Source: Clostridia bacterium
GTDB taxonomy: Bacteria; Bacillota; Clostridia; Oscillospirales; CAG-272
Reading direction: 5' to 3'
NCBI GenBank assembly: GCA_017504785.1
Contig: JAFVQL010000038.1
Coordinates: 1 to 37,262 of the forward strand
Length of the DNA stretch: 37,262 bases
How positions within the stretch are numbered: the stretch's first letter is position 1; each line of letters starts with the position of its first letter. A program made the translations under genes and the position numbers. The notes below the pieces were generated by a model. It had not been told where the DNA came from and made no database searches. It saw only the letters and a program-made list of their open reading frames with translations. Shown piece by piece: positions 16,700-32,115 of the stretch.

Positions 16700-17800
16700 A
16701 TGAAAGTTGAACTGAAAAATCTTACTAAAATTTTCCCCTCTCGCAACAAAAAGGCAGGCGGCGAGGTGGTTGCGGTCAATGATTTTAACTTCACCATCCC
16801 GGACGGAAAGCTCGTGGGCCTTCTCGGTCCGTCGGGCTGCGGAAAGAGCACGACGCTTTATATGATCAGCGGTCTGCAGAAGCCCACGTCGGGACAGATC
16901 TTCTTCGGTGACGAGGACGTGACGGAGCTGACGCCCGAGAACCGCGGCATCGGTCTCGTGTTCCAAAACTATGCGCTGTATCCGCACATGACCGTGAAGC
17001 AGAATATTCTTTTTCCCTTGCAGAATCTGCGCGGCGAGGACAAGCTTCCCAAGGAAGAAATGCTTGAGCGCGCCTATCGCGTGGCAAAGCTCGTGCAGAT
17101 CGACGAGCTGATGGACAGAAAGCCCAGCGAGCTTTCGGGCGGTCAGCAGCAGAGAGTTGCGATCGCGCGCGCCCTTGTGAAAATGCCGCGCGTGCTTCTT
17201 TTGGACGAGCCGCTTTCCAACCTTGATGCGCGCCTGCGCTTGCAGACGCGAGAGGAGATCCGCAGAATCCAGAAGGAGACCGGGATCACCACCATTTTCG
17301 TAACGCACGACCAGGAGGAGGCAATGTCGATCTCCGACGTCATCGTGGTCATGAAGCTCGGCGTCGTTCAGCAGACGGGCAAGCCCCAGCAGATATACGA
17401 CGATCCCTGCAATCTCTTCGTTGCCAAATTCCTCGGCACGCCGCCCATCAACGTATTTAACGGCGAGGTGAAGGGCGAGGTGCTTTATATCGGCGGCGCG
17501 GCGGTGCTTTCCGTGCCCGGGGTAGAGGATAAGGCGGTCTTTGTCGGCATCCGCCCCGAGGGCTTTATTCCCGACGAGGCCGGCGGGCTTCTTTGCGAGG
17601 TCTCGGGCGTTGACGTCATGGGACGCGACGTGAGCATCGTTTCAAAGCATAAAGAGATGCTGACCCCCTCCGTGCGCTCCATCGTGGATGCGGATTACAC
17701 GCTCGCCGAGGGGCAGAGAGAGGTCCGTTATGCGCTGAAGCCGCATAAGGTCTTCCTCTTTGATAAGACCACCGAGGAAAGAATTTATTTCGGGGTGTGA
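16700..17800 (+). CDS. ABC importer ATPase, MalK/UgpC/MsmK type
   Basis: A 366-residue nucleotide-binding subunit that powers a CUT1-type ABC importer at the inner face of the membrane. Walker A GPSGCGKST is at 43-51, the Q-loop at FQNYALYPHMTV, the signature LSGGQQQRVAIARAL at about 144-158, Walker B VLLLDEPLSNLDA just after, and the switch His in VFVTHDQEEAMS. A TOBE-type C-terminal domain follows (GTPPINVFNGEV..., FVGIRPEGF), as in MalK/UgpC. The length is typical for the family. Start has GGAGG at a good distance. It is the first gene of an operon with two permeases and a binding protein, the next ATG lying 4 bases after its TGA. MsmK-like ATPases can serve several importers, so it may have other partners. 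Confidence 0.93.
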   Translation: MKVELKNLTKIFPSRNKKAGGEVVAVNDFNFTIPDGKLVGLLGPSGCGKSTTLYMISGLQKPTSGQIFFGDEDVTELTPENRGIGLVFQNYALYPHMTVKQNILFPLQNLRGEDKLPKEEMLERAYRVAKLVQIDELMDRKPSELSGGQQQRVAIARALVKMPRVLLLDEPLSNLDARLRLQTREEIRRIQKETGITTIFVTHDQEEAMSISDVIVVMKLGVVQQTGKPQQIYDDPCNLFVAKFLGTPPINVFNGEVKGEVLYIGGAAVLSVPGVEDKAVFVGIRPEGFIPDEAGGLLCEVSGVDVMGRDVSIVSKHKEMLTPSVRSIVDADYTLAEGQREVRYALKPHKVFLFDKTTEERIYFGV

Positions 17801-17804
17801 CGCG

Positions 17805-18830
17805 ATGGAAGAAAAAAATACGAGCTTTTTCGCGAAGCTTTGGCACAGCGTTTCCGACTTCTTTTCGAAGCGGGTATGGCAGGGCTTCTGCGTCAATATT
17901 CTTTATAAAAAATTCGATCGCTACAAGGGCTGGATCTATCTTGCGCCCGCGATCGTGCTTCTTATGATCTTTACGGTGTGGCCGATCTTCAATACCATCC
18001 GCATGTCGCTTCTTGAGGGATATACCTCGATGAAGGCGGTGCGCGGCGTGGAATTTGAATTCGGTATCGGAAACTTCACCCGCGTTCTGAAATATAAGGG
18101 CTTTATCAACTGCTTGAAGAATACGGTGCTTCTCACGGTGCTGACCGTGCCGATCTCCACCTTCCTTGCGCTTTTGATCGCCGTGTGCTTAAACTCCATC
18201 AAGTGGTTTTCGAGAGCCTTGCAGACGATCTTCTTCCTTCCGTACGTAACCAACTCCATCGCCATCGGCATGGTGTTCGCCGCGATGTTCAATATGATCC
18301 TCGGCGGCGGCGCGCGCCCCGACTTCGTCGGTGTCGTAAACATCGTGATCGAGGCGTTTGGCGGCGAATATATCAACTGGATGAACGCCGGATCGGAATA
18401 CTGGGCCAACATTTTCGTCATGACGGTATATATCGTCTGGAACGCGCTGCCCTTCAAGATCCTGATCCTTCTCGGCGGTCTTCAGTCGGTCAATAAGCAG
18501 TATTACGAGGCTGCCAAGGTGGATGCAACGCCGCGCCGGCGTGTGTTCACGAGGATCACGATCCCGCTTCTTTCCCCGATGCTTGCCTACGTTATCATCA
18601 CGGGCTTTATCGGCGGCTTCAAGGAATATTCCTCGATCGTCGGCGTATTCGGTGACAGCATGGGTCCCGCGGGCAATCACTACGCGCTGGATACCATGGT
18701 CGGCTTTATCTACCGTGCGATCGGTAACCAAGAGGGAACCGCCTCGGCGGCGGCACTCATTCTTTTTGCTATCATATTGGTGGTCACGATGGTGAACCTC
18801 TACGTGAGCAAAAAGAAAACGCATTATTAA
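17805..18830 (+). CDS. ABC importer permease, MalF/UgpA type
   Basis: A 341-residue membrane permease, first of the pair. It opens with an amphipathic basic segment (FFAKLWHSVSDFFSKRVWQG), then about six helices; the first is APAIVLLMIFTVWPIFNTI, standard for MalF/UgpA-type proteins. The EAA loop that docks on the ATPase is YYEAAKVDATPRRRVFTRIT (about 233-252), followed by IPLLSPM. It ends VSKKKTHY. ATG 17805 is used, 4 bases after the ATPase stop; an in-frame ATG at 17760 lies inside the ATPase gene. It should form a heterodimer with the next gene's product. Confidence 0.92.
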   Translation: MEEKNTSFFAKLWHSVSDFFSKRVWQGFCVNILYKKFDRYKGWIYLAPAIVLLMIFTVWPIFNTIRMSLLEGYTSMKAVRGVEFEFGIGNFTRVLKYKGFINCLKNTVLLTVLTVPISTFLALLIAVCLNSIKWFSRALQTIFFLPYVTNSIAIGMVFAAMFNMILGGGARPDFVGVVNIVIEAFGGEYINWMNAGSEYWANIFVMTVYIVWNALPFKILILLGGLQSVNKQYYEAAKVDATPRRRVFTRITIPLLSPMLAYVIITGFIGGFKEYSSIVGVFGDSMGPAGNHYALDTMVGFIYRAIGNQEGTASAAALILFAIILVVTMVNLYVSKKKTHY

Positions 18831-18842
18831 GGGGGTGGCGAG

Positions 18843-19763
18843 ATGAAAGCAACGAACAAAGCGACGGCCTCATCCTCTCCCAAGGTGATGCGCGAAAGAG
18901 ATATGGAAAAGGTTTCCAAGGCGCAAAAAGCCGTCAAGATCGGCGTGCAGGTCGCGCTCTATCTTTTCCTCGGTATCATGGCACTGATCGTGCTTTTCCC
19001 GTTCTACTGGATGCTCGTTTCCTCGGTGAAGACCATGCCGGAATACAGCCAGTCGATCCCGACGATCATTCCGCACGAATGGGATTTCCAAAACTACGTA
19101 GAGGTCTTCCAAAACGAGGATCTTCTGCTTGGACAGCTGTTTGCAAACACGCTGTTTGTCGGCGTGGTGTCCACGGTGATCTCGCTCGTGATCACGGTGC
19201 TCTCCGCCTTTGCCTTTGCGCGGCTTGAATTCAAGGGCAAAAATCTTTTGTTTGCCGCCTTGCTTGCCACGATGATGATCCCCGGCGAGCTTTTCACGAT
19301 CACAAACTTCCAGACGGTGCATACCTTCGGCTGGATGAATACCTTTACGGTTCTGATCGTGCCCTTCCTCGTCAGCGTTTTCTACATATACCTTTTAAAG
19401 CAGAATTTCCAGCAGGTGCCAAACGAATTGTATCTGGCCGCAAAGGTGGACGGAACGACGGATCTGAAATACCTTTGGAAGGTCATGATCCCGCTGGCAC
19501 TCCCCACGCTGATCTCCATCACCATTCTCAAGATGATGGGCTCGTGGAACTCCTATATGTGGCCTCGCCTCGTTGCCAACGACGAAGCACACAGGCTGAT
19601 CACCAACGGTCTTCGCACGGCGTTCACCTCGGCGGACGGCGTGACCGACGTGCCGCTCCAGATGGCGGCGGTCGCTGTGGTGTCCGCGCCGCTTTTCCTC
19701 GTATTCGTATTCCTTCGTAAATATATTATGAAGGGCGTTTCCAGAAGCGGTATCAAGGGTTAA
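18843..19763 (+). CDS. ABC importer permease, MalG/UgpE type
   Basis: A 306-residue membrane permease, partner of the preceding one. The long polar N-terminus (about 35 residues, Lys/Ser/Ala-rich) is followed by the first helix and FPFYWMLVSSVKT, a hallmark of MalG-type proteins. The EAA loop reads YLAAKVDGTTDLKYLWKVMI and is followed by PLALPTLISI. Its start lies 12 bases after the previous stop, with AAGGGGGTGG upstream. The C-terminal KGVSRSGIKG matches the usual MalG-type ending (GxxxGAVKG-like). Confidence 0.92.
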   Translation: MKATNKATASSSPKVMRERDMEKVSKAQKAVKIGVQVALYLFLGIMALIVLFPFYWMLVSSVKTMPEYSQSIPTIIPHEWDFQNYVEVFQNEDLLLGQLFANTLFVGVVSTVISLVITVLSAFAFARLEFKGKNLLFAALLATMMIPGELFTITNFQTVHTFGWMNTFTVLIVPFLVSVFYIYLLKQNFQQVPNELYLAAKVDGTTDLKYLWKVMIPLALPTLISITILKMMGSWNSYMWPRLVANDEAHRLITNGLRTAFTSADGVTDVPLQMAAVAVVSAPLFLVFVFLRKYIMKGVSRSGIKG

Positions 19764-19808: not shown

Positions 19809-21236
19809 ATGAAACGAATTCTTTCCACACTTCTTCTCCTCGCGATCCTCACGGTAACCGTGCTGGGCACGCTCACCTCCTGCGGCGGTGGCGGTGGCGG
19901 TACCGGTGGCGGGGTTTCGCCCGATTTCGAGATGCCTGCGGGCGGCTTTGATACCACCACACCCGTGACCATTACCTTCTATCACTCGATGGGACAGGGC
20001 CTGCGCGAGATCCTTGACGATGCGATCGCAGACTTCAATAAGATCTATCCCAACATCAAGGTAGAGCATCAGTCCTTCGGTGACTACGACGGCGTGCGCG
20101 ACCAGGTGAAGCAGGAGATCCTCGTCGGCGATCAGCCGCACCTTGCATACTGCTATCCCGACCACGTGGCGCTCTATAACGATGCAAACGCCGTGCAGAC
20201 GCTCGATATCTTCATGAACGACGCAACCTACGGCTACACCGAGGAGCAGCTTAAGGACTTCGTTGCGGGCTGGCTTGCAGAGGGTGCCGCCTTCGGTGAC
20301 AACAAGATGTATTCACTTCCTCTTTCCAAGTCCACCGAGGTGCTTTACTACAACAAGACCTATTTTGAGAAGAACAATCTGAAGGTTCCCACCACCTGGG
20401 ACGAGATGGAGGCGGTTTGCCGCCAGATCAAGGCCATGGAAGGCGATAAGTGCATTCCTCTCGGCTATGATTCCGAATCCAACTGGTTTATCACCATGTG
20501 CGAGCAGTATAATTCTCCTTATACCTCCGCAACCGGTGAAAACTTCCTTTTTGACAATGAAACGAACCGCGCGTTCGTAGAGAGATTCCGCACTTGGTAT
20601 CAGGAAAAGCTCGTGACCACCAAGGCGCTCAACAGTAATTCCTACACGTCTAACCTCTTTACGGGCAGTGCGACCGGAAACGCGGCAGGCACGCGCTCCT
20701 ATATGTGTATCGGCTCTACGGGCGGTACGGTATACCAGCAACCCAAGCAGACCGACGGCGTTTACGAGTTTGAGGTAGGCGTGGCACAGATCCCGCGGAT
20801 CGATCCTTCCAAGCCCAAGGTTATTTCCCAGGGCCCCTCGATCTGCCTCTTCAAGAAGGACAATCCCCAAGAGGTTCTTGCTTCTTGGCTGTTCGCAAAG
20901 TTCCTTACGACGGATATCAACTTCCAGGCGGGCGTTTCCATGAACAACGGCTACTGCCCCGTCATCAAGTCCGTGATCGAGAACGCCGAGTATAAGGCAT
21001 GGCTGGATACGGCGGGCACCTCGAACCTTCAGGCATACGGCGTGAAGGCAGCGCTTGAGCATGCGGATTCCTACTATGCATCTCCCGCCTTCCTCGGCTC
21101 CTCCATTGCGCGCGATCAGGTTGGTCTTCTTCTGTCCAAGTGCCTCTCCGAGACCGCGGCAAAGGATATCTCCGCCTTTATCAAGAAGGCCTTTGAGGAT
21201 GCGGTGGAAGAGTGCAAGTACCAGTCCGGTCAGTGA
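19809..21236 (+). CDS. ABC importer substrate-binding lipoprotein (family 1)
   Basis: A 475-residue lipoprotein with signal MKRILSTLLLLAILT, lipobox LTSC (lipidated Cys 25) and a Gly-rich linker. The mature part starts PVTITFYHSMGQGLREILDD, the first beta strand and helix of family 1 solute-binding proteins. FNKIYPNIKVEHQSFGDYDG, YSLPLSKSTEVLYYNKTYFE and PTTWDEMEAVCRQIKAM are the usual hinge and domain markers. It is encoded 45 bases after the second permease and completes an ABC importer. The family usually binds sugars or glycerol-phosphate-type ligands; here the ligand is unknown. The next genes encode secreted nucleases, so nucleotide- or pentose-derived ligands are possible but unproven. 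Confidence 0.9.
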   Translation: MKRILSTLLLLAILTVTVLGTLTSCGGGGGGTGGGVSPDFEMPAGGFDTTTPVTITFYHSMGQGLREILDDAIADFNKIYPNIKVEHQSFGDYDGVRDQVKQEILVGDQPHLAYCYPDHVALYNDANAVQTLDIFMNDATYGYTEEQLKDFVAGWLAEGAAFGDNKMYSLPLSKSTEVLYYNKTYFEKNNLKVPTTWDEMEAVCRQIKAMEGDKCIPLGYDSESNWFITMCEQYNSPYTSATGENFLFDNETNRAFVERFRTWYQEKLVTTKALNSNSYTSNLFTGSATGNAAGTRSYMCIGSTGGTVYQQPKQTDGVYEFEVGVAQIPRIDPSKPKVISQGPSICLFKKDNPQEVLASWLFAKFLTTDINFQAGVSMNNGYCPVIKSVIENAEYKAWLDTAGTSNLQAYGVKAALEHADSYYASPAFLGSSIARDQVGLLLSKCLSETAAKDISAFIKKAFEDAVEECKYQSGQ

Positions 21237-21266: not shown

Positions 21267-22802
21267 ATGAAAAAGAATTCACTTCGCATTTTATCCCTGC
21301 TTCTCCTTCTTTGCGTGGCGCTCTCCGTGCTGGCGTCCTGCTCTCTCGGCTGTACGACCCATAAGGACGATAACCGAGACGGCATCTGCGACACCTGCTC
21401 GAAGGAGATCCCCGCGTGCGAAAAATGCACGGATACCGATAGAAACGGCGTTTGCGACCTTTGCTTCCGCGCGGTAACGATTCCTTGCTCTATTCACAAG
21501 GATGAGCAGAGGGACGGTATCTGCGACGTATGCGCGACCGTTTTGCCCGCATGGGTGGACTACGTGGCCCAAACGAAGCTGGATATGCATTCCGCTACGC
21601 TCAAGGAAGAGGTAACGGTGAAGTATTATATCGACGGCGATACCACGCATTTTGAATCCGATACGCTCGGAACGAACGGCGTCGCCAAGGCAAGATACCT
21701 TGCAGTCAATACCCCCGAGTCCACGGGTAAGATCGAGGAATGGGGCAAGCCCGCCTCGAACTTCACGAAGGAAAAGCTTTCGAGCGCGCATTCGATCATC
21801 ATCGAGGCGGACGGCTCGAGCTGGGAGCAGGACAGCAACGGCAGATACCTTCTCTGGATCTGGTATCAGCCCGCGGCGGGTGCGGAATACCGCAACCTCA
21901 ATCTCGAGCTTTTGCAGGAGGGCTTCGGCCGCAGCGCCTCGGTTTCCGAGGGGCGGTACGGCTCCGCCTGCGTTGCCGCCATGGGACAGGCAAAGACCTA
22001 CGGTCTGCATCTTTTCTCCGGCGAGAAGGACGAGACCTTCCCCTACGACGAGGCGATCTCGGTTTCTCTGAAGGAGCTTCGCACCAATATTGCGGCGTAC
22101 GCCGGCAAGAACGTTGTGGTTGAGGGCGTCGTCGTCCGCAACAGCAACTGGGAGGTCTATATCGAAAGCTACGATGCGGCGACCGCGCGCTCGTACGGCA
22201 TGCAGATCTTCTACGGTTATATTTCGGGACTGAACAACGTGCTTCTGCCCGGCAACGAGGTCCGCATCACGGGCACGGTGCAGGAGTTCTTCGGCACGTA
22301 TCAGATCTCCAACCTCACCTATAAGCCTCTGCGCCCGACCGATCCCGCCAATACGGTGGTTCTTTCGAAGGGGCACACGCCGCCCTTTACCGAGATCGCT
22401 CCCAAGGATTTCCTTGCGAGTGTGACCGTTCCCGTCACCAAGACGGATGCCGAGGGCGAAAGCTACGAGGAGGATAAGATCTTCAAGAATGCAGAGCTTC
22501 TGCTTTCCTCTTCGGTTTCAATGAAGGATCTTCTCGTTACGAAGGTCTACACCACGACCAACGTCCAGAGCGACGATTACGGCGCGATGACGCTGACCTG
22601 CAAGGCGGCGGACGGCACGGTCATCTCCGTGCGTACCGAGGTTCTGCTGGATGAAAACGGCGATCTTATCACCGATCAGTATTTCTACGGCGAGACCATC
22701 GACGTGAAGGGCATCGTGGAATTCTATCAGCCGGACAGCGGCGAAGGAAAGTATCAGATCCGTGCGTACACGATGAATGATTTTGTGATCCACGGCAATT
22801 GA
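21267..22802 (+). CDS. Surface lipoprotein with staphylococcal-nuclease domain and OB-fold segments
   Basis: The product is 511 residues. Lipobox LASC (Cys 25) is followed by three Cys/Asp-rich repeats (HKDDNRDGICDTC, CTDTDRNGVCDLC, HKDEQRDGICDVC; about 32-95). A thermonuclease-like domain spans about 121-252: YYIDGDTTHF (first metal Asp), ARYLAVNTPES (Arg and Glu of the catalytic set; the second metal Asp reads Asn), DSNGRYLLWIWY (second Arg) and LNLELLQEGFGRS. A segment at about 265-358 (NIAAYAGKNVVVEGVVVRNS...GNEVRITGTVQEF) looks like the OB-fold found beside SNase domains in Bacillus YhcR-type nucleases; a further beta-rich domain closes the protein. It probably cuts extracellular DNA/RNA at the cell surface. 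It starts 30 bases after the binding-protein gene, so it is likely in the ABC operon. Confidence 0.8.
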   Translation: MKKNSLRILSLLLLLCVALSVLASCSLGCTTHKDDNRDGICDTCSKEIPACEKCTDTDRNGVCDLCFRAVTIPCSIHKDEQRDGICDVCATVLPAWVDYVAQTKLDMHSATLKEEVTVKYYIDGDTTHFESDTLGTNGVAKARYLAVNTPESTGKIEEWGKPASNFTKEKLSSAHSIIIEADGSSWEQDSNGRYLLWIWYQPAAGAEYRNLNLELLQEGFGRSASVSEGRYGSACVAAMGQAKTYGLHLFSGEKDETFPYDEAISVSLKELRTNIAAYAGKNVVVEGVVVRNSNWEVYIESYDAATARSYGMQIFYGYISGLNNVLLPGNEVRITGTVQEFFGTYQISNLTYKPLRPTDPANTVVLSKGHTPPFTEIAPKDFLASVTVPVTKTDAEGESYEEDKIFKNAELLLSSSVSMKDLLVTKVYTTTNVQSDDYGAMTLTCKAADGTVISVRTEVLLDENGDLITDQYFYGETIDVKGIVEFYQPDSGEGKYQIRAYTMNDFVIHGN

Positions 22803-22861: not shown

Positions 22862-25800
22862 ATGAAAAAAGTATTTACACTTCTCCTGATGCTCGTCATG
22901 TGTCTTTCCATGCTGACCGGTTGTTTCGGCTCCGAGTGGCATAACAGCCACCAAAACGGCGGCGAGGCGGATGCGGCATTGACGGCGGCGGCCGATTTCC
23001 TTTATAGCGTTATGAAGGACAAAGAGGGCGTCGAGAACTTAAACGACTTCGACGTTGTTAAAAAGCTCGTCGTTGACGGCGTTACCTACGAGGTAACTTG
23101 GACGACGGATAACGACAAGGTAAAGATCGTTGAAAGCTCCAAGGCCAGCTATTGGACGGTGGATATCCCCACCACCAACGACGTAGCGTTCAGCTATAAG
23201 CTGACGGCCACCATCAAGGCGGCGGACGGAAAGACCATTACGAAGGAATTTAACCGCAAGGTTGGCGTGATCGGTGCAGACAACGCATTGGTCGTTGCCG
23301 ATCCGCAGGAGGGCGTTGACTATAAGCTCTTCATCGTGCAGTATACCGCACGCAAGGTCCTTTTCCTGAAGGGCGCAACCCAGAACAACGAAAACAAGTA
23401 CATCCTCGGCGGTGACGCAAAGGATGGCGCGATCTTCCGCGTTGAAAAGGCAGACGGCGGCGTGAAGATCTATACCGAGATCGACGGCGCGAAGATGTAT
23501 CTCTCCGCTTCCATTACGCTCATCGAGGACGGCAAGACGAGCAAATATCTCGGCTTCTCCGCGGATAAGCCCTCCGTATTCTACTACAAGCAGAACGTAG
23601 GCGCATGGTTCACCATGATCGATAACGCCGAGTTCGTGATCGGTACGTACAGCACCTACGAGACCGCATCTCTTTCCGAAGGCAAGTTTATGACCGAGGA
23701 AGCGGTTGCAAAGAAGGAGCAGTTCGCAGTTTCCTTCATGACCAAGGCAAGCGCGGATACCTACGTTCCTCCCGTATTTGAGGAACCCGACGAGCCTGCC
23801 GACGGATCGACCTTGACCATCAAGGAAGCGATCGATCTCGGCAATACCTTTGCAAAGAACGGCTATTCCGTCGGTAAGTTCGTTGTGACCGGTACCGTAA
23901 AGCAGATCCAGAGCGACGTCTACGGTAACGTTGTGATCACCGACGGCACGAACGATCTTCTGGTCTACGGTATGTACGATCCCGCAGGCAAGAGATTTGA
24001 TAAGATGGCAACCAAGCCCAAGGAGGGTGACGTGATCACCGTGAAGGGTATCATCGGTATGTACGATGCGCCCCAGATGAAGAACGGTACGCTCACCAAG
24101 ATCAACGATACCGAGCTTGGCGGCGGCTCCGCGGAAGACGGCCTTATCCTGAATATGCTGGGCTCGATCACCCGCGTTGAGCGAACCGATGAAAAGACCG
24201 TGCATAAGGCAAACGGCATCACCTATACCAATGACAGAGGCGAGTCCAAAACGCCCAACTATAATAACACCGGCTCGAATGCGGCAAGAGCGTATAAGAG
24301 CTCCACGATCACGATCAGCGCAGATAAGGCGTTCAGAAAGATCGTATTCACGCTGGACGATTATTCGAACGGCGAATATCTGAAGGGCTTTGACGGCATG
24401 ACGGTTGCAGGCGCGACCATCACTCGCAATAACGATACGGTAACGATCGTTCTCGCCGAGGCGAAGACCTCCTTCACCACCGCGGCTCTGCTTGCACAGG
24501 TTCGTATCAAGGAGATCGCGGTATACGAGGAAGCCGGCGACGTTGGCGGTGAGCAGCCCGGCGAAGGTGACGAGAGCGGCATGACGCTCGTGACCGCACC
24601 CGAGGCAGGCGTTGGCTACTATCTGCGCTTGACGCAGGGCACTCTCAACAAGACCCTTTACATCAACGGTGCTACGGCAAATAAAGAGTGGTATCTTGCA
24701 ACCGTTGAGGATCCCGCACAGGCAGTGCTTGTATATCTGGAAGCGGTTGACGGCGTTAGCGGCGCTTTCAGAATGTACTTCACGAAGGATAACGCGAAGA
24801 CCTATATCCGCGTTTATGAGCGCGATGCGTCGAGTAAGTCCGGCTCTCTGGAGCTTGTGACGAGCGCACCCGAGGAGTACTTCACCTTTAACAGCGAGCT
24901 GAAGACTCTTATGTATACCAAGGGAGAAAACTCCTACATTCTTAATACCTATAACGATTTTGATACGTTCTGCGTATCTCATATCTCCAAGGCTCCGATC
25001 AACTTCGTTTCCGGTCTCTATCAGAAGGCAGAGTCCGGCGAGCCCGTAGCACCTCACGAGCATGCGTACGTGCCTACCGTCGTAGCACCCACCTGCACCG
25101 AGGCGGGCTACACCGAGCATAAGTGCGCGTGCGGCGACTCCTACAAGGATACCTACACGGATGCGCTCGGCCATAAGGACGAGAACGGCGATAAGGTTTG
25201 CGACGGCTGCGGCATCGACAGAGAGCTTTACGGCGTTGTAGACGCTCCCGTTGTCGGCGCACCCTATTTCTTGGGTCTCGTTCAGCAAAAGCTTGGCTAT
25301 AACCTTTACTTCAGCGGCAAGACGGCTGACAAGGATTACTACCTTGCAACCGAAAAGTCCGCAGTCGTTGCCGACACGAGAGTATTCCTCGAGGCGGTGG
25401 ACGGCGTGGAGGGCGCGTACAGACTGTATTTTGAGACCGAAGCGGGCGGTAAGATCTATATTCGCGTTTACGAGCGCGATGCTGCCGGCAAGAAGGGAAG
25501 CCTCGAACTTGTCAGCACCGTGCCCGCAGAGTACTTCACCTACGATAAGGATCTGAAGACGCTCGTGCATACGGCAGGTGAAAATGCGTACTACATCGGT
25601 ACCTACAACACCTTTAACACGCTTTCCGTATCTCACGTTTCCTTCGCTTCCACGAGCTTCGTGGCAAGCTTCTATGTAAAGAACGTGACCGCACACCACG
25701 CTTACACGGTGACCGAGGTAGTAGAGCCCACCTGCACCGAAAAGGGCTATTCGGTATATACCTGTGCGTGCGGCGACTCCTACAAGGCGGATTTCACGGA

Positions 25801-27940
25801 TACCATTCCTCACGTTGACTATAACGACGATAAATTCTGTGACGAGTGCGGCGCAGACGTTCGTATTTACGACGTTCTGATCGGCAATCCCACGGTAGGC
25901 ACGCCGTATTACATCGGTATCTTCCAGGGTAACCTTGATAAGGTGCTTTACTTCAACGGCAGCGTTGGCAACAAGGATTACTATCTTGCAACCGTTGAGA
26001 TCCCTCTTCAGGCACAGACGCTCTATCTCGAAGAAGTTAACGAGCTCGGCAGAAGAATCTACTTCTACGATGAGGACGGCACGAAGACCTACATCCGCAT
26101 TTACGAGCGCGATGCAGAGGGCAAGAAGGGAAGCCTTGAGCTGACCGCGAAGATCCCCGTTGAGTACTTCGTATTCGATAAGGATCTGAACACTCTCGTT
26201 TATAAGGCTGCAAGCGGCAACGCTTACTACCTTGGCACTTACAGCAACTTTAACACCCTTTCCGTTTCCCATATCGATTATGCAACCAAGGAAGGCAACT
26301 TCGTAGCAAGACTGTATACGATCGGTGCAAAGCCGCACGAGCATCTTTACACCGCGCATCAGACCGTTGCTCCCAAGTGCGTTGAGCAGGGCTACGATGT
26401 GCATACCTGCCCCTGCGGATACTCCTATCAGGATAATTACACTGCCGCTCTCGGCCATATCGATGCAAACGGCGATAAGGCTTGCGACGATTGCTCCGAT
26501 CCCATGTCTGCTTCCGTGGATATGAAGGGAAAGACGACGCGCACCGAATACAGCAAGGAGCAGCTTGAGCATTCTGCAAACGGCGTGACCGTTATCGTGA
26601 ATAAGGCAGGCAGCTCCACGAATTGCTACGACAACACGGGCTCGTATGCCGCAAGACTCTATACGAAAATGACGGTTGCGATCACCGGTACGGCTTTGAT
26701 CGATAAGATCGTGATCAAGATGGATAATATGAACAACGGTCAGTACGTCGTCGGCTTTGACGATATGTCCTTGGATGGCTACGTTCTGTACCGCGCGGAC
26801 GATACGCTTACGATCGTATTCTCCGAGCCTGCGCTCTCCTTCGTATCTCTTCCTCTTGGCAGTCAGGTGCGCGTAAACAGCGTAGAGGTGTTCTATCTTG
26901 ACCGTGCACACGAGCACGTTTACACGAGCCAGGTGGTTGGCGCGTCCTGTGCAGATAAGGGCTATACGCTTCATACCTGCGAGTGCGGCAACGTTTATAA
27001 GGATACGTGGGTAGATACTCTTCCGCACGTAGACGAGAACGAAGATAACGTTTGCGACAATGCATGCGGCGTATTTATCGGTACTCCCGTTGCACCGGGT
27101 GCTGTTGCTCCCGTTGCGGGCGTGGCGTATAAGCTTGTGATCCATCAGGGTAAGCTCGGTAAGCTCTTGTACGTTTCCGGCGTGAAGAGTGGTCATTACG
27201 GCTCAACGGTAGAGAGCGCGACCGGTGATGCAAACGTTTATATCGAAGCAACCCCCGACGGCTTCTACATGTATTGCATCGTTAAGGGCGTTAAGACCTA
27301 CATCAATATGGTAGTAAGCGGCGAGTACGTAAATATCAGCTTTGATGCTGAGGCATCCACCGTTTATACCTACGATGCAGATCTGAAGAGCGCCGTGGCA
27401 ACCGTGAACAATAAGAAGTACGTCTTCGGTATCGAGGCGGGCAATACTTATAAAACCTACGGACCTATTCTCGCAAGCGCAGACGGCTACGTTCTGAACT
27501 TCGTTGCTTCGACCGTTGCGGATTCCGAGGCTCCTGCAAATGTTGCAGTATTGGATCTTGGTACGGGCGCAAATCAGCTTTCCTTCTCTACGACGGAACA
27601 GGTTTACGCAGCGAACGGTCTTACGTTGAAAAACCAGAAGGGGGCTTCGTCCACCAATTGCCGTGATGCCAAGGATAAAGGTGATTCGGCCATCCGTTTG
27701 TATCAGAACTCGACCTGTGTAATCGAATCCACGGTTGCTTTTAATAAGCTTGTTTTGACGACGGAAAGCGCGACTCAATATAATGCCGGCATGGATAATC
27801 TGCAGGTGGAAGGTGCAACCATCGTTCGTGTAGATGACGTTATTACGGTAACCTTTACAAATGCGGTGACCTCTGTGACCTTTACTAAAGTTGCAGCACA
27901 GACGAGAATAAAGACTGTGGAAGCATATCTTGTTGCTTAA
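22862..27940 (+). CDS. Giant repeat lipoprotein with OB-fold segment and Cys-rich modules
   Basis: The product is 1692 residues; lipobox LTGC, lipidated Cys 21. By eye it is a mosaic of four module types: an Ig-like start (~37-134); A modules (~145 aa; (G)VGYYLxLxQGxLxKxLYxNG... IRVYERDAxxKxGSLEL... Y) at ~144-297, 579-722, 795-940, 1009-1154, 1417-1555; an OB-fold-like segment (~319-417; VTGTVKQIQSDVYGNVVITD... GDVITVKGIIGMY); B modules (~130 aa; NNTGSNAARAYKSSTITI... GFDGMTV) at ~427-556, 1220-1350, 1562-1692; and C modules (~55 aa; HxHxY, PTCTEAGYTEHKCACGDSY, then a HxDxNxDxxCDxC loop) at ~732-787, 946-1002, 1159-1215, 1351-1405. Probably a surface adhesin or binding scaffold. It follows the nuclease gene by 59 bases. 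Ligand unknown. Confidence 0.8.
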   Translation: MKKVFTLLLMLVMCLSMLTGCFGSEWHNSHQNGGEADAALTAAADFLYSVMKDKEGVENLNDFDVVKKLVVDGVTYEVTWTTDNDKVKIVESSKASYWTVDIPTTNDVAFSYKLTATIKAADGKTITKEFNRKVGVIGADNALVVADPQEGVDYKLFIVQYTARKVLFLKGATQNNENKYILGGDAKDGAIFRVEKADGGVKIYTEIDGAKMYLSASITLIEDGKTSKYLGFSADKPSVFYYKQNVGAWFTMIDNAEFVIGTYSTYETASLSEGKFMTEEAVAKKEQFAVSFMTKASADTYVPPVFEEPDEPADGSTLTIKEAIDLGNTFAKNGYSVGKFVVTGTVKQIQSDVYGNVVITDGTNDLLVYGMYDPAGKRFDKMATKPKEGDVITVKGIIGMYDAPQMKNGTLTKINDTELGGGSAEDGLILNMLGSITRVERTDEKTVHKANGITYTNDRGESKTPNYNNTGSNAARAYKSSTITISADKAFRKIVFTLDDYSNGEYLKGFDGMTVAGATITRNNDTVTIVLAEAKTSFTTAALLAQVRIKEIAVYEEAGDVGGEQPGEGDESGMTLVTAPEAGVGYYLRLTQGTLNKTLYINGATANKEWYLATVEDPAQAVLVYLEAVDGVSGAFRMYFTKDNAKTYIRVYERDASSKSGSLELVTSAPEEYFTFNSELKTLMYTKGENSYILNTYNDFDTFCVSHISKAPINFVSGLYQKAESGEPVAPHEHAYVPTVVAPTCTEAGYTEHKCACGDSYKDTYTDALGHKDENGDKVCDGCGIDRELYGVVDAPVVGAPYFLGLVQQKLGYNLYFSGKTADKDYYLATEKSAVVADTRVFLEAVDGVEGAYRLYFETEAGGKIYIRVYERDAAGKKGSLELVSTVPAEYFTYDKDLKTLVHTAGENAYYIGTYNTFNTLSVSHVSFASTSFVASFYVKNVTAHHAYTVTEVVEPTCTEKGYSVYTCACGDSYKADFTDTIPHVDYNDDKFCDECGADVRIYDVLIGNPTVGTPYYIGIFQGNLDKVLYFNGSVGNKDYYLATVEIPLQAQTLYLEEVNELGRRIYFYDEDGTKTYIRIYERDAEGKKGSLELTAKIPVEYFVFDKDLNTLVYKAASGNAYYLGTYSNFNTLSVSHIDYATKEGNFVARLYTIGAKPHEHLYTAHQTVAPKCVEQGYDVHTCPCGYSYQDNYTAALGHIDANGDKACDDCSDPMSASVDMKGKTTRTEYSKEQLEHSANGVTVIVNKAGSSTNCYDNTGSYAARLYTKMTVAITGTALIDKIVIKMDNMNNGQYVVGFDDMSLDGYVLYRADDTLTIVFSEPALSFVSLPLGSQVRVNSVEVFYLDRAHEHVYTSQVVGASCADKGYTLHTCECGNVYKDTWVDTLPHVDENEDNVCDNACGVFIGTPVAPGAVAPVAGVAYKLVIHQGKLGKLLYVSGVKSGHYGSTVESATGDANVYIEATPDGFYMYCIVKGVKTYINMVVSGEYVNISFDAEASTVYTYDADLKSAVATVNNKKYVFGIEAGNTYKTYGPILASADGYVLNFVASTVADSEAPANVAVLDLGTGANQLSFSTTEQVYAANGLTLKNQKGASSTNCRDAKDKGDSAIRLYQNSTCVIESTVAFNKLVLTTESATQYNAGMDNLQVEGATIVRVDDVITVTFTNAVTSVTFTKVAAQTRIKTVEAYLVA

Positions 27941-27964
27941 GGCTTGACCGAAAATATAAAAAAG

Positions 27965-27993
27965 TCTTCCCGCCGCATTTTGTGGCGGGAAGA
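27965..27993 (+). terminator. Terminator after the giant lipoprotein gene
   Basis: TCTTCCCGCC (27965-27974) pairs with GGCGGGAAGA (27984-27993) around a 9-base loop. The T-run is broken (TGTTTCTAG), so some readthrough into the ribonuclease gene is possible; I see no convincing separate promoter for that gene. Confidence 0.65.
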
Positions 27994-28067
27994 TGTTTCT
28001 AGTTGAAAATTTAAATGAAGTGTTTGCCTTTTTAATATCAAAATCGGCATAGGAAAGTATTTTTACT

Positions 28068-29321
28068 ATGAAAAAAATATCAGTAAAGCTTCTTGCGCTT
28101 CTGCTTGCGCTCCTTTTGGCGCTTTCGCTTTGCGCCTGCGACATGGGCGGCGGTTCGCCGCCTCTCGCACAGAGCTTCTCCATTCTGGACGGCGACAGCA
28201 TTGAGGTGGCGCTTGACGGCGAGTACAGACTCCGCACGAATCTTTTAGAGGAAGAATTAAAGTCGGTCAAGTGGACGGTGTCGGGCGACTGCGTTATGGT
28301 GACCGAGGAAGGATACATTCTCGGCATCCGCGTTGGCACGGCAACCGTGCGCGGCGAGATCGCGGGGCATTCGGATAGCGTGCAGGTGCGCGTTGTGGAA
28401 AAGAAGGCGTCCGAGCCGACCTCCGCAAGCGGCGCATCCGCGAGCTTCGACCCTTACGAGAGAATGACGGCGGCGGCGTTCTACGAAAATTATACGCCTG
28501 CCGACAGCCATTGGGACGCATATTGGCGCACCTTCCATAATTTTATGTCAGGCACGCTGGAAACGCCCGATCAGGCGCCCGTGCTCTCGGCGTACAGACC
28601 GACGGCAGACGGAAGGTATATAAGAAACACCGATATGCTCTATTCCGAGGGCGGCAAGGCGTACACCGTTACGGATGCTTACGGCGAAGCGGTCTTCACC
28701 GTGTATGAATACGGCGCGTATATCACGCTCGAGGAGATAGCGGCGTACGTTTTCGCCTTTGGCGACGTTCCCGAAAATTACGATGCCGATAAGGACGCAA
28801 ATCCCAAGGGAAGCCCTTGGGGCGAGTATCTGCGCGCAAATCATTCCTATTTTTCGGGGGATACGGATCGGTTTCCCTACGAGCCCGTGCTTCCCAATAT
28901 TTCGGGCTGCGGCGGTACGCTCTATTACTACGAGATCGATATCGGAACGACCGGAACAGATTGCGATCCCAAATATCCGAGCACACTTTATAATAACGGC
29001 AATCAGATCACGCGCGGTGCGGCACGCATCGTGTACGGCAAGCAGGATCTGAACGGCAACGGCATTTACGAGCGCGGCGAGCATCACGTTTTCTATACCT
29101 ATAATCACTACAACGATTTTCAGGAGTATTTGAATTACTTTGGCGGCTGGGGCGAGACGTTCGGCAATATTACCGGCGGCGGCTCGATATCGAGCAAATA
29201 CGACTATAATCCCACCGATTATATAGAGGTGGCGTTCACCTCACTCTCCTCGCACGGAAATGCGGCGGCGATGATCTTCGTGCTTCCGCCTGCGTATCTG
29301 AAGCGTGCGGAGATTTTTTGA
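28068..29321 (+). CDS. Surface lipoprotein with Ig-like and barnase-type ribonuclease domains
   Basis: The product is 417 residues; lipobox LCAC (Cys 24). An Ig-like (Big_2-type) domain spans ~35-115 (VEVALDGEYRLRTNL-like strand, KSVKWTVSGDCVMVTEEGYI, GTATVRGEI). After a Ser/Ala linker and an uncharacterised ~100-residue part comes a C-terminal domain from ~220 like microbial guanyl-type RNases (barnase family). YITLEEIAAYVFAFGDVPENY parallels the start of such domains, YYYEIDI (Glu 289) the catalytic Glu, ITRGAARIVYG (Arg 316, 320) the Arg strand, and VFYTYNHYNDF (His 347) the catalytic His. An insertion, DLNGNGIYERGE (327-338), has the spacing of an EF-hand calcium loop. Probably degrades RNA outside the cell. 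No barstar-like gene is adjacent, consistent with export. Confidence 0.75.
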   Translation: MKKISVKLLALLLALLLALSLCACDMGGGSPPLAQSFSILDGDSIEVALDGEYRLRTNLLEEELKSVKWTVSGDCVMVTEEGYILGIRVGTATVRGEIAGHSDSVQVRVVEKKASEPTSASGASASFDPYERMTAAAFYENYTPADSHWDAYWRTFHNFMSGTLETPDQAPVLSAYRPTADGRYIRNTDMLYSEGGKAYTVTDAYGEAVFTVYEYGAYITLEEIAAYVFAFGDVPENYDADKDANPKGSPWGEYLRANHSYFSGDTDRFPYEPVLPNISGCGGTLYYYEIDIGTTGTDCDPKYPSTLYNNGNQITRGAARIVYGKQDLNGNGIYERGEHHVFYTYNHYNDFQEYLNYFGGWGETFGNITGGGSISSKYDYNPTDYIEVAFTSLSSHGNAAAMIFVLPPAYLKRAEIF

Positions 29322-29425: not shown

Positions 29426-29439
29426 CTTTTGAAAAAGGA

Positions 29440-29466
29440 AAAACGCCGTCTAAAGACGGCGTTTTC
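29440..29466. terminator. Bidirectional terminator between convergent genes
   Basis: AAAACGCCGTC (29440-29450) pairs with GACGGCGTTTT (29455-29465) around TAAA. It lies just past the surE stop and ends the minus-strand nrnA-nrnA-surE operon; it can also back up the plus-strand terminator. Confidence 0.85.
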
Positions 29467-29469
29467 TTG

Positions 29470-30195
29470 TTAATTCAATTCGTTTTTGAGCGCTTCAAAA
29501 ACCTGCATATCCGTGCGTACGGCGATCAGAGGCGTGATGGAAATATAGCCGTCGAAAAGCGTGAGCACGTCGGTCTCGGGATCGGTATCCGTCACCGCGG
29601 CGGGTGTGCCCACCTGCTCGTAGGTCACCGTGTCGATACGGCGAAATTCATCGGTATAGTAGATCCCGCCCTGCCTTGTGATGCGAAAGCCCTTCGGGTC
29701 TTTTGGCAGATTGACGTTGTACCAGCCGTGGCGTGAAAGCAGATCGTTTTTCTTAAAATATTCGTAAAGGCGGGGAAGCGATGCGATCGCGGGCGAAAAA
29801 TCGTCCGGTGCGGTGGAAAGCGCGATCCCCTTGATGCCGAGCCTCGCCGCCTCGAAAACCGCACCCGCCGTCCCGGAGTAAACGAGATCTGCTCCGAGAT
29901 TGAAGCCGCGGTTGATGCCCGAGAGCACGAGATCGAATTTTTCCTTCAATCCCAGCACGGCAAAGCGCACGCAGTCCGCCGGGGTGGAGTCCATGGAGTA
30001 GCACCGCGCGCCCTCGGCGATCGAAGTCTCACGGATCTCGATCGGCCTTGTGAAATCGATCGCGTGGCTTTTTCCGCTTTGCTCCGTCTTGGGCGCAACC
30101 ACCACGATCTCGTCGGCAATGGATCTCGCAAATGCCACGAGGTGCGAAAGCACGGGTGCGTTGATACCGTCGTCATTCGTAATCAGAATTTTCAT
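29470..30195 (-). CDS. surE: 5'/3'-nucleotidase SurE
   Basis: A 241-residue metal-dependent phosphatase acting on nucleoside monophosphates and, in some species, short polyphosphates. The family signature is complete: KILITNDDG (Asp 8, Asp 9 bind metal), VVVAPKTEQSGKSHAID (Ser 40), FDLVLSGINRGFNLGADLVY (Asn 95) and YSGTAGAVFEA (106-116). The C-terminal half reads SurE-like, with the usual YNVNLPKDPKGFRITRQGG (NINxP followed by a G/ITRQG strand). It is the third gene of an operon; its ATG overlaps the stop of the preceding NrnA-like gene by 4 bases, indicating translational coupling. Together the three genes could convert short oligonucleotides to nucleosides. Confidence 0.95.
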   Translation of the reverse strand: MKILITNDDGINAPVLSHLVAFARSIADEIVVVAPKTEQSGKSHAIDFTRPIEIRETSIAEGARCYSMDSTPADCVRFAVLGLKEKFDLVLSGINRGFNLGADLVYSGTAGAVFEAARLGIKGIALSTAPDDFSPAIASLPRLYEYFKKNDLLSRHGWYNVNLPKDPKGFRITRQGGIYYTDEFRRIDTVTYEQVGTPAAVTDTDPETDVLTLFDGYISITPLIAVRTDMQVFEALKNELN

Positions 30196-31172
30196 ATCCA
30201 GCCGGTGTTCGTCTCCTTATATTCCTTAAGCAGTGCATCGGCTTCCGAGATCAGAGCGCGCATTTCTGCCTTGGAATACACGGTCGCGCCGCTGGCACAG
30301 GCGTGTCCGCCGCCGTGATATTTCGTTGCAAGATCGTGCACCTCGACGAAGCGGGAGCGAAGGCGCACGCGCGTTTTTCCGTCGTCGCCGTCAATAAAGG
30401 CAAGCCAGATCAAGGAGCCCTTGATGGAATCCAGATAAGAAACCGAGGCGCTGGCATCCTCGCTCGAAAGCCCAAATTTTTTCTTCATCCGCTTCGTGAC
30501 GTGCAGATAAACCACGCCGTTTTCGGTCATCTTCATCTTTTTATAAACGGCGGCTTGGAAGCGGAAGTTGTGCAGCTCCTTCATGTAGAGATTGGCATAA
30601 AGGTGCTCGGTGTCAACGCCGATATCGAGCAGCATGCCTGCAAGGCGCAAGGTGTTTCCCGAAACGTCGCGGTAGCGGAAGCGCCCCGAATCGGTCACCA
30701 TGCCCGCATAAAGATAGGTGGCTGCCTCGGTGTCGATCTTCAGCTTGTCGCGGAAGGTGTCGTAAAAGTGCGCGATCATCTCGCAGCAGGAGGAGCGCTC
30801 CTCCTCGATCCAGGCGGCGTTGCCGTAGGGCTTATCGTCGATGTGATGGTCGATCTTCACGATCTCACGGCAGAGAGCAAACTTTTTGTTGGAGATGCGG
30901 TCGGTCGTCCCCGTATCCACAACGACGGCGAGCGCGTCCTTATAAAACGCATCCTCGACCGTGGCGTCCTCGCCGCCGAGAAAGGCGAGATAATCCGAGT
31001 GGTCCGCATTGATAAGGCGGATATCCTTCTCGGGATACGAGAGCTTCAGAATGCGCTGAAGTCCCTTCGATGAGCCGACAGCGTCACCGTCCGGGCGGAA
31101 GTGCCGAAAGATAATAATTTTGTCATATTCCTCGATTTTGTCAATAATTCTTTGCATTTTGACATTATTCAT
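30192..31172 (-). CDS. DHH-family phosphoesterase, NrnA-like (second copy)
   Basis: A 326-residue DHH/DHHA1 phosphoesterase like Bacillus NrnA (nano-RNase and pAp phosphatase), which trims 2-5-nt RNA oligomers to mononucleotides and dephosphorylates pAp. The DHH domain shows IIIFRHFRPDGDAVGSS (His 24, Asp 28, Asp 30), VVVDTGTTDRI, KIDHHIDDKPYGN and YAGMVTDSGRFRYRD. The C-terminal DHHA1 domain has the substrate-binding GGGHACASGATV. The ATG at 31172 is used because AGAGG precedes it by 8 bases; it overlaps the last codons of the upstream paralogue by 8 bases. An in-frame ATG at 31223 is inside that gene and has no SD. Confidence 0.9.
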   Translation of the reverse strand: MNNVKMQRIIDKIEEYDKIIIFRHFRPDGDAVGSSKGLQRILKLSYPEKDIRLINADHSDYLAFLGGEDATVEDAFYKDALAVVVDTGTTDRISNKKFALCREIVKIDHHIDDKPYGNAAWIEEERSSCCEMIAHFYDTFRDKLKIDTEAATYLYAGMVTDSGRFRYRDVSGNTLRLAGMLLDIGVDTEHLYANLYMKELHNFRFQAAVYKKMKMTENGVVYLHVTKRMKKKFGLSSEDASASVSYLDSIKGSLIWLAFIDGDDGKTRVRLRSRFVEVHDLATKYHGGGHACASGATVYSKAEMRALISEADALLKEYKETNTGWI

Positions 31173-32115
31173 TGCAAATACCTCTGTTAACTTCGTCAAG
31201 ATCTTTAAGAAGTGCCATTGCATCCTCGCGCGATTTCAGGGTTGCGCCGCTGGCTTTTTTGTGTCCGCCGCCGCCCCATTTGACGGCAACGGGATTGATG
31301 TTATGTAGGGAAGAGCGGATCTCGCAGAGCACGCCCTCGTCGGTTTCCGTGAAGTTTACCCACGTGTCGATGCCGCGGATGTCACTCATGGTGTTGACCA
31401 TGCCGCGCGAGATCGTGAAGGTATCCGCGCCCGTGGCGGCCGCCTCCTCCTTGGTGGTGTATATGTAAGCAACGCCCGCCTCTGTCACCTGTATCTTCGA
31501 TACGAAGTGCGCCCGAAGCTTGACGTTTTCGAGATCGTCCGAATAAAGATTTTTATAGATATCCTGCGTGGAAAAGGGCGTCCTTAAAAGGAAGGAAGCG
31601 AGGGCAAAGGTCTGTGCGTTCGTGCTGTCGTAGCGGAAGCGCCCCGAATCGGTCACCATACCGGTGTAGAGCGCCTTTGCCGCCTGCGGCGGAACGCGAA
31701 GGCCGCATTCTTTTGCCATTGCGGCGATCATACCCGCACAGCTTTCAAAGCGCGTGTCGATCACCTCGGTGTCGCAGATCTTCTCGCAGAAGATATGATG
31801 ATCGATGCGCGCACTTGCCTTGGCGGTCGCGTAGCGGTCATCGGAGATGAGAGCCTTTGCCGACGTATCCAGCACGATGGCGAGCGCATCCCGATAGGCA
31901 AGGTCCTCCACCGTGTCCATTTCCTTATCCCCCGCAATGAAGGCGTAGCGCCGATTCATATCTCCCACGGCGAGGATCTCCTTTTCGGGGAAATTTTCTT
32001 TCAGTATATGATAAAGCCCGATCTGCGCGCCGAGCGCATCTCCGTCGGGATTCTGATGGCGGTGCAAAATAATGCGCTCGTGCGCCTTTATCTGCGTTAA
32101 AATGCTTTCAAACAT
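31165..32115 (-). CDS. DHH-family phosphoesterase, NrnA-like (first copy)
   Basis: A 316-residue DHH/DHHA1 phosphoesterase, paralogue of its downstream neighbour. It shows IILHRHQNPDGDALGAQ, LAIVLDTSAKALISDD, SARIDHHIFCEK, TGMVTDSGRFRYD and the DHHA1 glycine loop WGGGGHKKASGATL, so all metal and substrate motifs are kept. It is the lead gene of the nrnA-nrnA-surE operon, with GGAGG 5 bases before the ATG and a promoter at 32157-32185. The two copies differ strongly between motifs, so this is an old duplication or two distinct acquisitions, and division of labour (oligo degradation versus pAp phosphatase) is possible. Confidence 0.9.
   Translation of the reverse strand: MFESILTQIKAHERIILHRHQNPDGDALGAQIGLYHILKENFPEKEILAVGDMNRRYAFIAGDKEMDTVEDLAYRDALAIVLDTSAKALISDDRYATAKASARIDHHIFCEKICDTEVIDTRFESCAGMIAAMAKECGLRVPPQAAKALYTGMVTDSGRFRYDSTNAQTFALASFLLRTPFSTQDIYKNLYSDDLENVKLRAHFVSKIQVTEAGVAYIYTTKEEAAATGADTFTISRGMVNTMSDIRGIDTWVNFTETDEGVLCEIRSSLHNINPVAVKWGGGGHKKASGATLKSREDAMALLKDLDEVNRGICNE

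Follow-up and report, generated by a model that had tools for sequence, protein, structure and literature searches.

Importers of the CUT1 class are usually annotated as sugar or glycerol-phosphate transporters. What would be carried by one whose genes run directly into the gene of a surface nuclease? The question is raised by a locus on contig JAFVQL010000038.1 (assembly GCA_017504785.1) of a Clostridia bacterium (Oscillospirales; CAG-272), the whole 37,262-nt sequence of which was analysed and is referred to here as the window. This locus is very probably a nucleic-acid utilisation locus of gut Clostridia. A preliminary description of the window had proposed a chain of genes leading from extracellular nucleic acid to nucleosides, and the proposal is supported in its main line by gene linkage, by co-occurrence and by the nucleoside genes that neighbour related loci. 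All ten open reading frames (ORFs) that it claimed are present where it placed them. The genes of the locus, including that of the importer's solute-binding protein (SBP), are as follows.

16700..17800, plus strand: importer ATPase, UgpC/MalK type (ABC_tran 1.7e-38)
17805..18830, plus strand: importer permease 1, UgpA type (BPD_transp_1 2e-17)
18843..19763, plus strand: importer permease 2, UgpE type (BPD_transp_1 5.6e-16)
19809..21236, plus strand: importer solute-binding lipoprotein, the SBP (SBP_bac_8 2.9e-31)
21267..22802, plus strand: surface SNase-type nuclease lipoprotein with an OB-like C-terminal part (SNase PF00565 2.3e-9)
22862..27940, plus strand: giant repeat lipoprotein of 1692 aa (no domain above cut-off)
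28068..29321, plus strand: barnase-type ribonuclease lipoprotein with an Ig-like N-terminal part (PF00545 5.7e-4, sub-threshold)
29470..30195, minus strand: SurE 5'/3'-nucleotidase (TIGR00087, 155.8 bits)
30192..31223, minus strand: NrnA-like DHH-DHHA1 phosphoesterase, copy b (Pfam and NCBIfam profiles)
31165..32115, minus strand: NrnA-like DHH-DHHA1 phosphoesterase, copy a, first gene of the convergent unit (Pfam and NCBIfam profiles)

The nuclease–importer operon and its conservation

The importer (16700-21236) is complete and of CUT1 type, comprising an ATPase, two permeases and a lipoprotein SBP. From the ATPase gene through the giant gene all genes run in one direction, with gaps of at most 59 nt. 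The ORF of the first permease opens at TTG 17760, and its first ATG lies at 17805.

The SNase-type domain that the preliminary description had assigned to the product of 21267-22802 is borne out, both by a score over the Pfam cut-off (PF00565, 38.1 bits versus 21) and by the conservation of catalytic residues. D123, D125, R143 and E151 are invariant in 28 of 28 homologues and R193 is kept in at least 90%; by staphylococcal nuclease numbering we take these to be the Ca2+-binding and catalytic positions. The catalytic Asp-Asp-Arg-Glu-Arg set is present in the family, whose profile aligns with the solved staphylococcal nuclease over its domain (PDB), and the lipobox cysteine is invariant in all 28 proteins. 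The OB-like C-terminal part gives sub-threshold matches only. Enzymes of the SNase family act on both DNA and RNA and leave mono- and dinucleotides with a 3'-phosphate. One genome, G001, has a second SNase copy (L042:12317-13828, minus strand, contig G001:C60) that lacks the equivalent of R193 (SNase R87).

A scan of species-level public genomes gave 525 related SNase stretches, the best 80 of which are called the named loci below. All 80 come from metagenome-assembled genomes, 49 of them labelled cecum, colon or rectum, and the nearest named relative is a water-deer rectum genome (86% identity). The SNase gene lies directly 3' of the SBP gene in every named locus with at least 2 kb of upstream sequence (76/76), and a complete importer lies 5' of it in every one with at least 5.7 kb (66/66); a stricter overlap filter missed one permease in 7 of 67 loci. 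SurE and both NrnA-like genes lie 3' of the SNase operon in 35 of 48 named loci. Nuclease genes standing consistently apart from the importer and from nrnA/surE in relatives had been named beforehand as grounds for refuting the proposed chain, and these counts leave it standing.

An SNase protein match was found in 42 of 147 related genomes. The full SNase-OB lipoprotein is present in 27, all belonging to the window's family; the other 15 share no more than a short Cys/Asp repeat or a distant SNase domain and were excluded from the carriers. The SBP gene is directly 5' of the SNase gene in 27 of 28 family loci, the 28th being L042. A reading of L042 as an orphan SNase that had lost its importer was withdrawn, because the contig ends within ~0.3 kb of the aligned part. 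The same operon recurs in L081, which belongs to another order of the class. L095, from a family that also lies outside the window's order, has a diverged version (SBP 33%, SNase 39% identity) that stands behind polC and whose SNase carries a DUF5689/OB part. The SBP also adjoins the SNase in G232 (L078), a congener of L095.

Linkage to the importer is not general for SNase genes. In a sample of the phylum, 90 of 348 genomes had an SNase match, and an SBP match within 1.5 kb was found in none of the 30 loci listed. In a sample of the class, the SBP stands beside the SNase in 3 of 43 places (G357, G208, G232); 47 SNase places outside the window's genome were listed, and those counted comprise 35 with wider flanks and 8 with 1.5-kb flanks. 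Because the arrangement is conserved in related genomes, a chance association is excluded. A separate observation concerns the pair L095/L090 (G208, G254), of another genus: in one genome a polC-like gene (polC identified by eye) is followed immediately by the SNase lipoprotein gene, and in its congener the importer genes stand between the two, as if inserted or lost.

Nucleoside genes and the NrnA-NrnA-SurE unit

The decisive context for nucleic-acid utilisation is provided by the nucleoside and nucleotide genes that neighbour the operon. ORFs around the 80 named loci were clustered, and one representative of each recurrent partner was checked against NCBIfam and Pfam. Six partners scored over curated cut-offs: uridine phosphorylase (udp), phosphopentomutase (deoB), deoxyribose-phosphate aldolase (deoC), cytidine deaminase (cdd), pyrimidine-nucleoside phosphorylase (pdp) and thymidine kinase (tdk). 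Further partners are an NT5C deoxynucleotidase/guanylate-kinase fusion, a surface 5'-nucleotidase-like lipoprotein and a dGTPase-like HD protein (below NCBIfam cut-offs). At least one of these nine genes is present in 43 of the 80 named loci and in 2 of the 35 SNase loci used as controls (Fisher 3e-7), and any of the first six, the core deo/tdk/cdd set, in 22 against 1 (p 0.0018); the controls are SNase neighbourhoods of other taxa and hold less sequence (0.47 Mb in 35 loci, compared with 1.38 Mb in 80), so the contrast is unmatched for taxon and length. The counts are tblastn matches of more than 70 bits to one representative each, and 'udp' may therefore include other phosphorylases of its superfamily.

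One named locus, L180, has the order surface 5'-nucleotidase, NT5C-GMK, importer and SNase, followed on the opposite strand by SurE, NrnA, NrnA, udp, cdd, deoB, udp and deoC, possibly a route from polymer to pentose catabolism in one place. In the window's genome deoC, a DeoD/Udp-like phosphorylase (below the Udp cut-off) and deoB are adjacent on another contig, C29. The surface 5'-nucleotidase-like gene is found in 14 of the 80 loci. The fusion of an NT5C-type deoxynucleotidase with guanylate kinase (L122:714-1829, minus strand) is unusual; it and its relatives lie near the importer in 19 of the 80. At the level of whole genomes, deoC is present in 27 of 27 carriers of the SNase lipoprotein and in 42 of 62 non-carriers (Fisher p 2.7e-4).

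The convergent unit was described earlier as two NrnA-like phosphoesterases plus SurE. For SurE the name holds (TIGR00087, 155.8 bits over a cut-off of 135.1). The two DHH-DHHA1 proteins keep both domains and match the NrnA model NF053633 best, with 257 and 232 bits, but since these scores fall under its cut-off of 350 they are called NrnA-like only. SurE (E<=1e-20) and NrnA (E<=1e-40) were found in the same 35 of 147 related genomes; the match in G079 is the second NrnA copy, the first being cut by the contig end. At the thresholds used, then, the unit is accessory in the window's family, and the caveat attached to the original proposal, that NrnA and SurE have housekeeping roles, does not apply as a general rule here.

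The unit is present in 26 of 27 SNase carriers and 9 of 62 non-carriers ([[26,1],[9,53]], 89 family genomes; Fisher 8e-14). On a species tree both traits change at least 11 times. Independent pairs on this tree gave 7 changes in the same direction, 0 in the opposite and 2 unchanged (sign test p 0.016), and reciprocal pairs about 8, 0 and 2 (p 0.008). The tree was built by a quick LG+G4 run from 14 ribosomal proteins of 60 genomes; it covers 59 of the 89 family genomes, all with a usable rplB region, and leaves out G035, G096 and G107 as well as G006, G016 and G059 (partial rplB only). The placement of the unit varies. It is downstream and convergent in most loci, downstream and co-directional in L029/L188 (one genome), and upstream in L161, L176 and L187. 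In G013 and G040 it lies on a different contig from the SNase operon, with at least ~17 kb of contig on each side of the SNase gene.

The two remaining lipoproteins are less constant partners. For the product of 28068-29321 the earlier label 'barnase-type' is favoured by four residues, E289, R316, R320 and H347, which all 12 homologues keep and which may correspond to the catalytic residues of barnase. Its scores make the label weaker than stated. The match to PF00545 reaches 20.8 bits against a cut-off of 24, and no solved ribonuclease was matched by the domain in the PDB, where the sole matches were to the Ig-like part and a glucanase. When C-terminal domains were compared by themselves, 8 of 9 matched PF00545 at E<=0.1, the best at 2.5e-4, and 5 of 12 full-length homologues did so at E<=0.01. 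The lipobox cysteine is invariant in 12 of 12, and the Ig-like N-terminal part has Big_2 matches in 4 of 12. Members of the barnase family leave 3'-phosphate or 2',3'-cyclic ends. All 20 genomes counted as having the gene also carry SurE; 5 of 25 matching genomes (G003, G054, G079, G082, G088), with weak partial matches, were left out of the carriers.

The giant lipoprotein had been described as containing an OB-fold and as a candidate for binding or uptake. The gene is there (22862-27940), whereas the OB-fold match remains sub-threshold (16.7 bits versus 27); no other Pfam domain exceeded its cut-off either, and no PDB match was obtained at E<=1. Where counterparts were recognised, their lengths lie between 504 and 2059 aa (contig ends truncate some), and their content varies between loci. 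A role in binding or uptake is not supported.

The imported ligand and alternative explanations

The importer was the weak link of the original proposal, and it is strengthened by the kinship of its SBP and by the nucleoside-metabolism genes in many of the neighbourhoods. All four importer proteins have a Ugp model as their best NCBIfam match, yet the SBP scores only 54.8 bits against the UgpB equivalog NF008211, the cut-off of which is 411. Its best PDB matches are the Thermus chains 7c0f-7c1b (3e-23 by family profile and 1e-13 by single sequence), labelled there as a sugar-binding protein only; we take this series to be the published dinucleotide binder. UgpB is the next PDB match by the family profile. 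In a 2025 study (PMC12718374), a CUT1 branch is described that comprises UgpB, a glycerophosphocholine binder and the Thermus binder of uridylyl-3'-5'-phosphoguanosine, a dinucleotide ligand for which Chandravanshi 2021 is cited there, and members of this branch share two tyrosines and two serines for phosphate (PMC12718374).

The window's SBP aligns Y93, S175, S303, Y382 and R435 with the ligand-site residues Y65, S144, S270, Y346 and R397 of E. coli UgpB (precursor numbering), and all five are invariant in 27 of 27 SBPs. The tryptophan pair with which UgpB clamps glycerol is absent; by alignment and spacing its place is taken by S224 and F227, the latter found in 27 of 27. The conservation of the phosphate site supports a phosphate-bearing ligand but not nucleotides as such. 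Its residues were rejected as proof of a nucleotide ligand, because 20 of 20 paralogous SBPs keep them. Mono- or dinucleotides are suggested as the ligand by gene linkage together with the kinship of the SBP. Close SBP paralogues form the C-terminus of longer ORFs (L101:1575-5498, L102:2-1861, L103:5413-7848, L104:337-2109, L105:5562-7682), with leucine-rich repeats in L105 and Big_2 in L104. These stretches have no permease or SNase match, and their products are perhaps binding proteins turned surface receptors.

From the gene families, conserved residues, linkage, co-occurrence and neighbours observed, we infer the enzyme activities, the imported ligand and the direction of flow as follows. 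The surface SNase lipoprotein would cut extracellular DNA and RNA to 3'-phosphorylated mono- and dinucleotides, and the barnase-type lipoprotein, where present, may also cut RNA at the surface. The CUT1 importer with its SBP would take up the phosphorylated products, most likely mono- or dinucleotides. Inside the cell the two NrnA-like DHH-DHHA1 enzymes are predicted to split short oligonucleotides, and SurE to remove the phosphate, including 3'-phosphates, giving nucleosides. SurE is a 5'/3'-nucleotidase able to take 3'-phosphates, an ability that fits here because SNase and barnase leave them. The nucleosides would then enter the deo pathway; a good many relatives have deo genes within this cluster, and the window's genome has them elsewhere, on contig C29. 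The more specific claim, that a 'sugar' CUT1 importer family of gut Clostridia in fact imports (di)nucleotides supplied by a surface nuclease of its own, with the 3'-phosphate kept on through uptake and followed by DHH-DHHA1 cleavage, SurE and the deo pathway, we regard as having an even chance of being correct.

Several observations weigh against reading the locus in this way. For every protein the evidence is sequence-based. The residues of the phosphate site do not specify nucleotides, since paralogous SBPs that are not linked to a nuclease, from the same or related genomes, keep them just as well (20 of 20). None of the nine nucleoside and nucleotide genes was found in 37 of the 80 named loci, nor in the window, within the sequence covered. 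The co-occurrence of deoC with the operon is not significant in a tree-controlled test, and the locus does not simply follow purine auxotrophy, because it has no association with loss of purF: this candidate driver was rejected, as 11 of 27 carriers have purF, compared with 33 of the 62 other genomes (Fisher 0.36; partial matches below cut-off in G060 and G083 counted as present). Of the 35 loci with both flanks available, 9 showed no SurE-NrnA unit in the 9 kb to either side. When only genomes at least 85% complete are used (47 rows), the pair tests weaken, one to 5 to 0 (p 0.0625) and the reciprocal one to about 6 to 0 (p 0.031). The barnase-type gene is near only 11 of 48 loci, and its pair test against SurE on the tree is not significant (p 0.125). 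Finally, the joint loss of adjacent genes may reflect one deletion and not a shared function; this explanation is weakened by the two genomes that carry operon and unit on separate contigs and by the varying position of the unit.

It is unlikely that the NrnA-NrnA-SurE genes are housekeeping genes of nano-RNA turnover that merely lie next door. Both NrnA and SurE do have such roles in model bacteria, as is generally known, and in 9 of the 35 genomes with the unit, mostly incomplete assemblies, no SNase operon was detected. However, SurE was not found at E<=1e-20 in 54 of the 89 family genomes, it co-varies with the operon on the tree and stays adjacent after rearrangements, and in some loci udp, deoB, deoC and cdd precede the SurE-NrnA unit on the same strand. 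The best matches to Ugp models, together with a phosphate site kept even in SBP paralogues without a nuclease, would also suit an importer of glycerol-3-phosphate or glycerophosphodiesters of the UgpB/GPC type, with the nucleases belonging to a joint phosphorus-scavenging regulon and not feeding it. We give this a low probability, given that the SBP falls far under the UgpB cut-off, that the glycerol clamp is replaced, with F227 in every family SBP compared, and that the recurrent neighbours scanned, which are part of all clusters, proved to be enzymes acting on nucleosides and nucleotides, none of them on glycerolipids.

The fixed place of the SNase gene beside the SBP gene in all 76 informative loci, and the nucleoside-metabolism genes in many of the same clusters, make it very unlikely that the nucleases serve defence, biofilm or competition by destroying extracellular DNA, with uptake incidental, even though membrane-anchored nucleases can act in this manner and evasion of NETs by mycoplasmas has been published (PMC9740415). 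That the importer carries an ordinary oligosaccharide and acquired its nuclease neighbour by hitch-hiking is scarcely credible. The CUT1 family, it is true, mostly moves sugars, but a complete importer stands 5' of the SNase gene wherever enough sequence is available and the order is the same in divergent lineages; nor is the adjacency a habit of SNase genes in general, as the phylum (0/30 listed loci) and class (3/43 places) samples show.

If nucleic-acid utilisation is the correct reading, gut Clostridia have the means to feed on DNA and RNA. On the more specific claim of a (di)nucleotide importer, the locus would be a nucleic-acid counterpart of polysaccharide-utilisation loci, possibly present in hundreds of uncultured species. 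The occurrence of the same gene set in many related gut bacteria suggests that feeding on nucleic acids is common among them. One operon would then reassign a whole importer subfamily (525 related SNase stretches in the scan), and would offer a testable model of how Gram-positive bacteria might take up nucleic-acid fragments with the phosphate still attached.

Related systems and the surrounding window

The preliminary description knew of no described system with this set of genes, which needs correction, as there are close precedents in mycoplasmas and in the Hujiaoplasma/Izemoplasmatales loci. Three studies describe a mycoplasma nuclease/ABC operon (MAG_5030-5070 in M. agalactiae, MBOVPG45_0307-0311 in M. 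bovis, mhp379, Mpn133 and MG_186) that has overlapping transcripts and is proposed to feed nucleotide precursors to its importer (PMC3585158, PMC4045577, PMC9740415). In the same sources deoC and pdp of M. bovis (0300, 0301) are listed ~5 kb from the operon, and the mycoplasma SBP MslA is cited as binding polynucleotides (PMC4045577). As in the window, an SBP lipoprotein, an SNase lipoprotein and a sugar-type ABC importer are found together, with the nuclease gene after the SBP gene. The order differs, being SBP, nuclease, ATPase and permeases in mycoplasmas but ATPase, permeases, SBP and nuclease here. The window's SBP also fails the NCBIfam model of P68, presumably (though we are unsure) the SBP of the mycoplasma operon, with 29.8 bits against a cut-off of 200 for NF045826; the divergent SBP of L095 reaches 47.5 bits. 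Beyond the mycoplasma operon the window has a candidate surface RNase, the giant lipoprotein, an RDD protein and the NrnA-NrnA-SurE unit. If the present reading is right, the poorly explained mycoplasma operon would gain a fuller counterpart with candidate cytosolic steps.

The zrk29 locus of Hujiaoplasma nucleasis contains an extracellular ribonuclease, NrnA and ABC transporters, many genes being up-regulated on DNA or RNA according to its descriptions (PMC8289736, PMC10470597, PMC8397711). Like the Izemoplasmatales loci, the window appears to combine extracellular nucleases, phosphoesterases and an ABC importer in one locus, to judge by protein family and lipoprotein signal. The Izemoplasmatales loci differ in carrying a large nuclease with lamin-tail and nucleic-acid-binding domains as well as phosphate transporters; neither a lamin-tail nuclease nor a phosphate (Pst) transporter had a Pfam match among the 29 window proteins scanned. 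The window's locus may work like these mycoplasma and Izemoplasmatales/Hujiaoplasma loci, an analogy drawn from their published descriptions, and membership among them is not claimed.

More distant likenesses are found in single components. The dinucleotide-binding SBP of a Thermus thermophilus CUT1 importer, presumably the 7c0 series, is the closest PDB relative, although a distant one and similar by sequence only. E. coli UgpB-UgpAEC is an importer of the same class with an aligned phosphate site, and differs by its tryptophan clamp and equivalog score. A further likeness is with ecto-5'-nucleotidases and with Bacillus subtilis YhcR, a cell-surface SNase/OB nuclease with a nucleotidase domain; in the window, unlike in YhcR, nuclease and nucleotidase are separate genes, linked to an importer. 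No description of the clostridial locus was found in the open-access library searched, which covers neither bioRxiv nor most subscription papers. What is new here, and well supported, is a variant of known nuclease/importer loci with a cytosolic branch next door, in many gut Clostridia, for which the ligand is assigned provisionally.

The limits of the transcription units are suggested by three intergenic hairpins, all with T tails, and by the gene that precedes the importer.

15348..16343, plus strand: RDD-family membrane protein gene (Pfam RDD 1.2e-9)
16434..16470, plus strand: terminator-like hairpin 3' of the RDD gene, 17-pair stem
27964..27994, plus strand: terminator-like hairpin ending the unit 16700-27940, 14-pair stem
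29439..29466, both strands: terminator-like hairpin between the barnase-type gene and surE

These hairpins sit after the RDD gene, after the giant gene and between the convergent units, and so divide the genes into four likely transcription units: RDD; importer-SNase-giant; barnase-type; and nrnA-nrnA-surE. The window as a whole has no excess of terminator-like sites (24 found, 22.1 expected), and the case rests on position and stem length. An RDD-like gene lies directly 5' of the ATPase gene in 59 of the 80 named loci (one representative was confirmed as RDD); given the hairpin 3' of it, the importer unit probably starts beyond it. A search of the window for tRNA genes found none, and an Rfam scan for riboswitches or regulatory RNAs gave no match at gathering score.

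Other genes of the window lie further off. At its edge an amidohydrolase/dihydroorotase-like gene (230-1522, minus strand) could bear on pyrimidine metabolism. On the 3' side of the locus, genes of an NMT1-like binding protein and then a DctM-type TRAP permease (32464-35761) are seemingly unrelated to it. A Cys/Asp-rich repeat, H-K-D-x-(D/N)-x-D-G-x-C-D-x-C, is shared by the product of 3988-5949 (plus strand), the N-terminus of the SNase lipoprotein and many large ORFs of the genus. Its bearers in the window are without a Pfam match at the repeat, which resembles a metal-binding or wall-anchor repeat.

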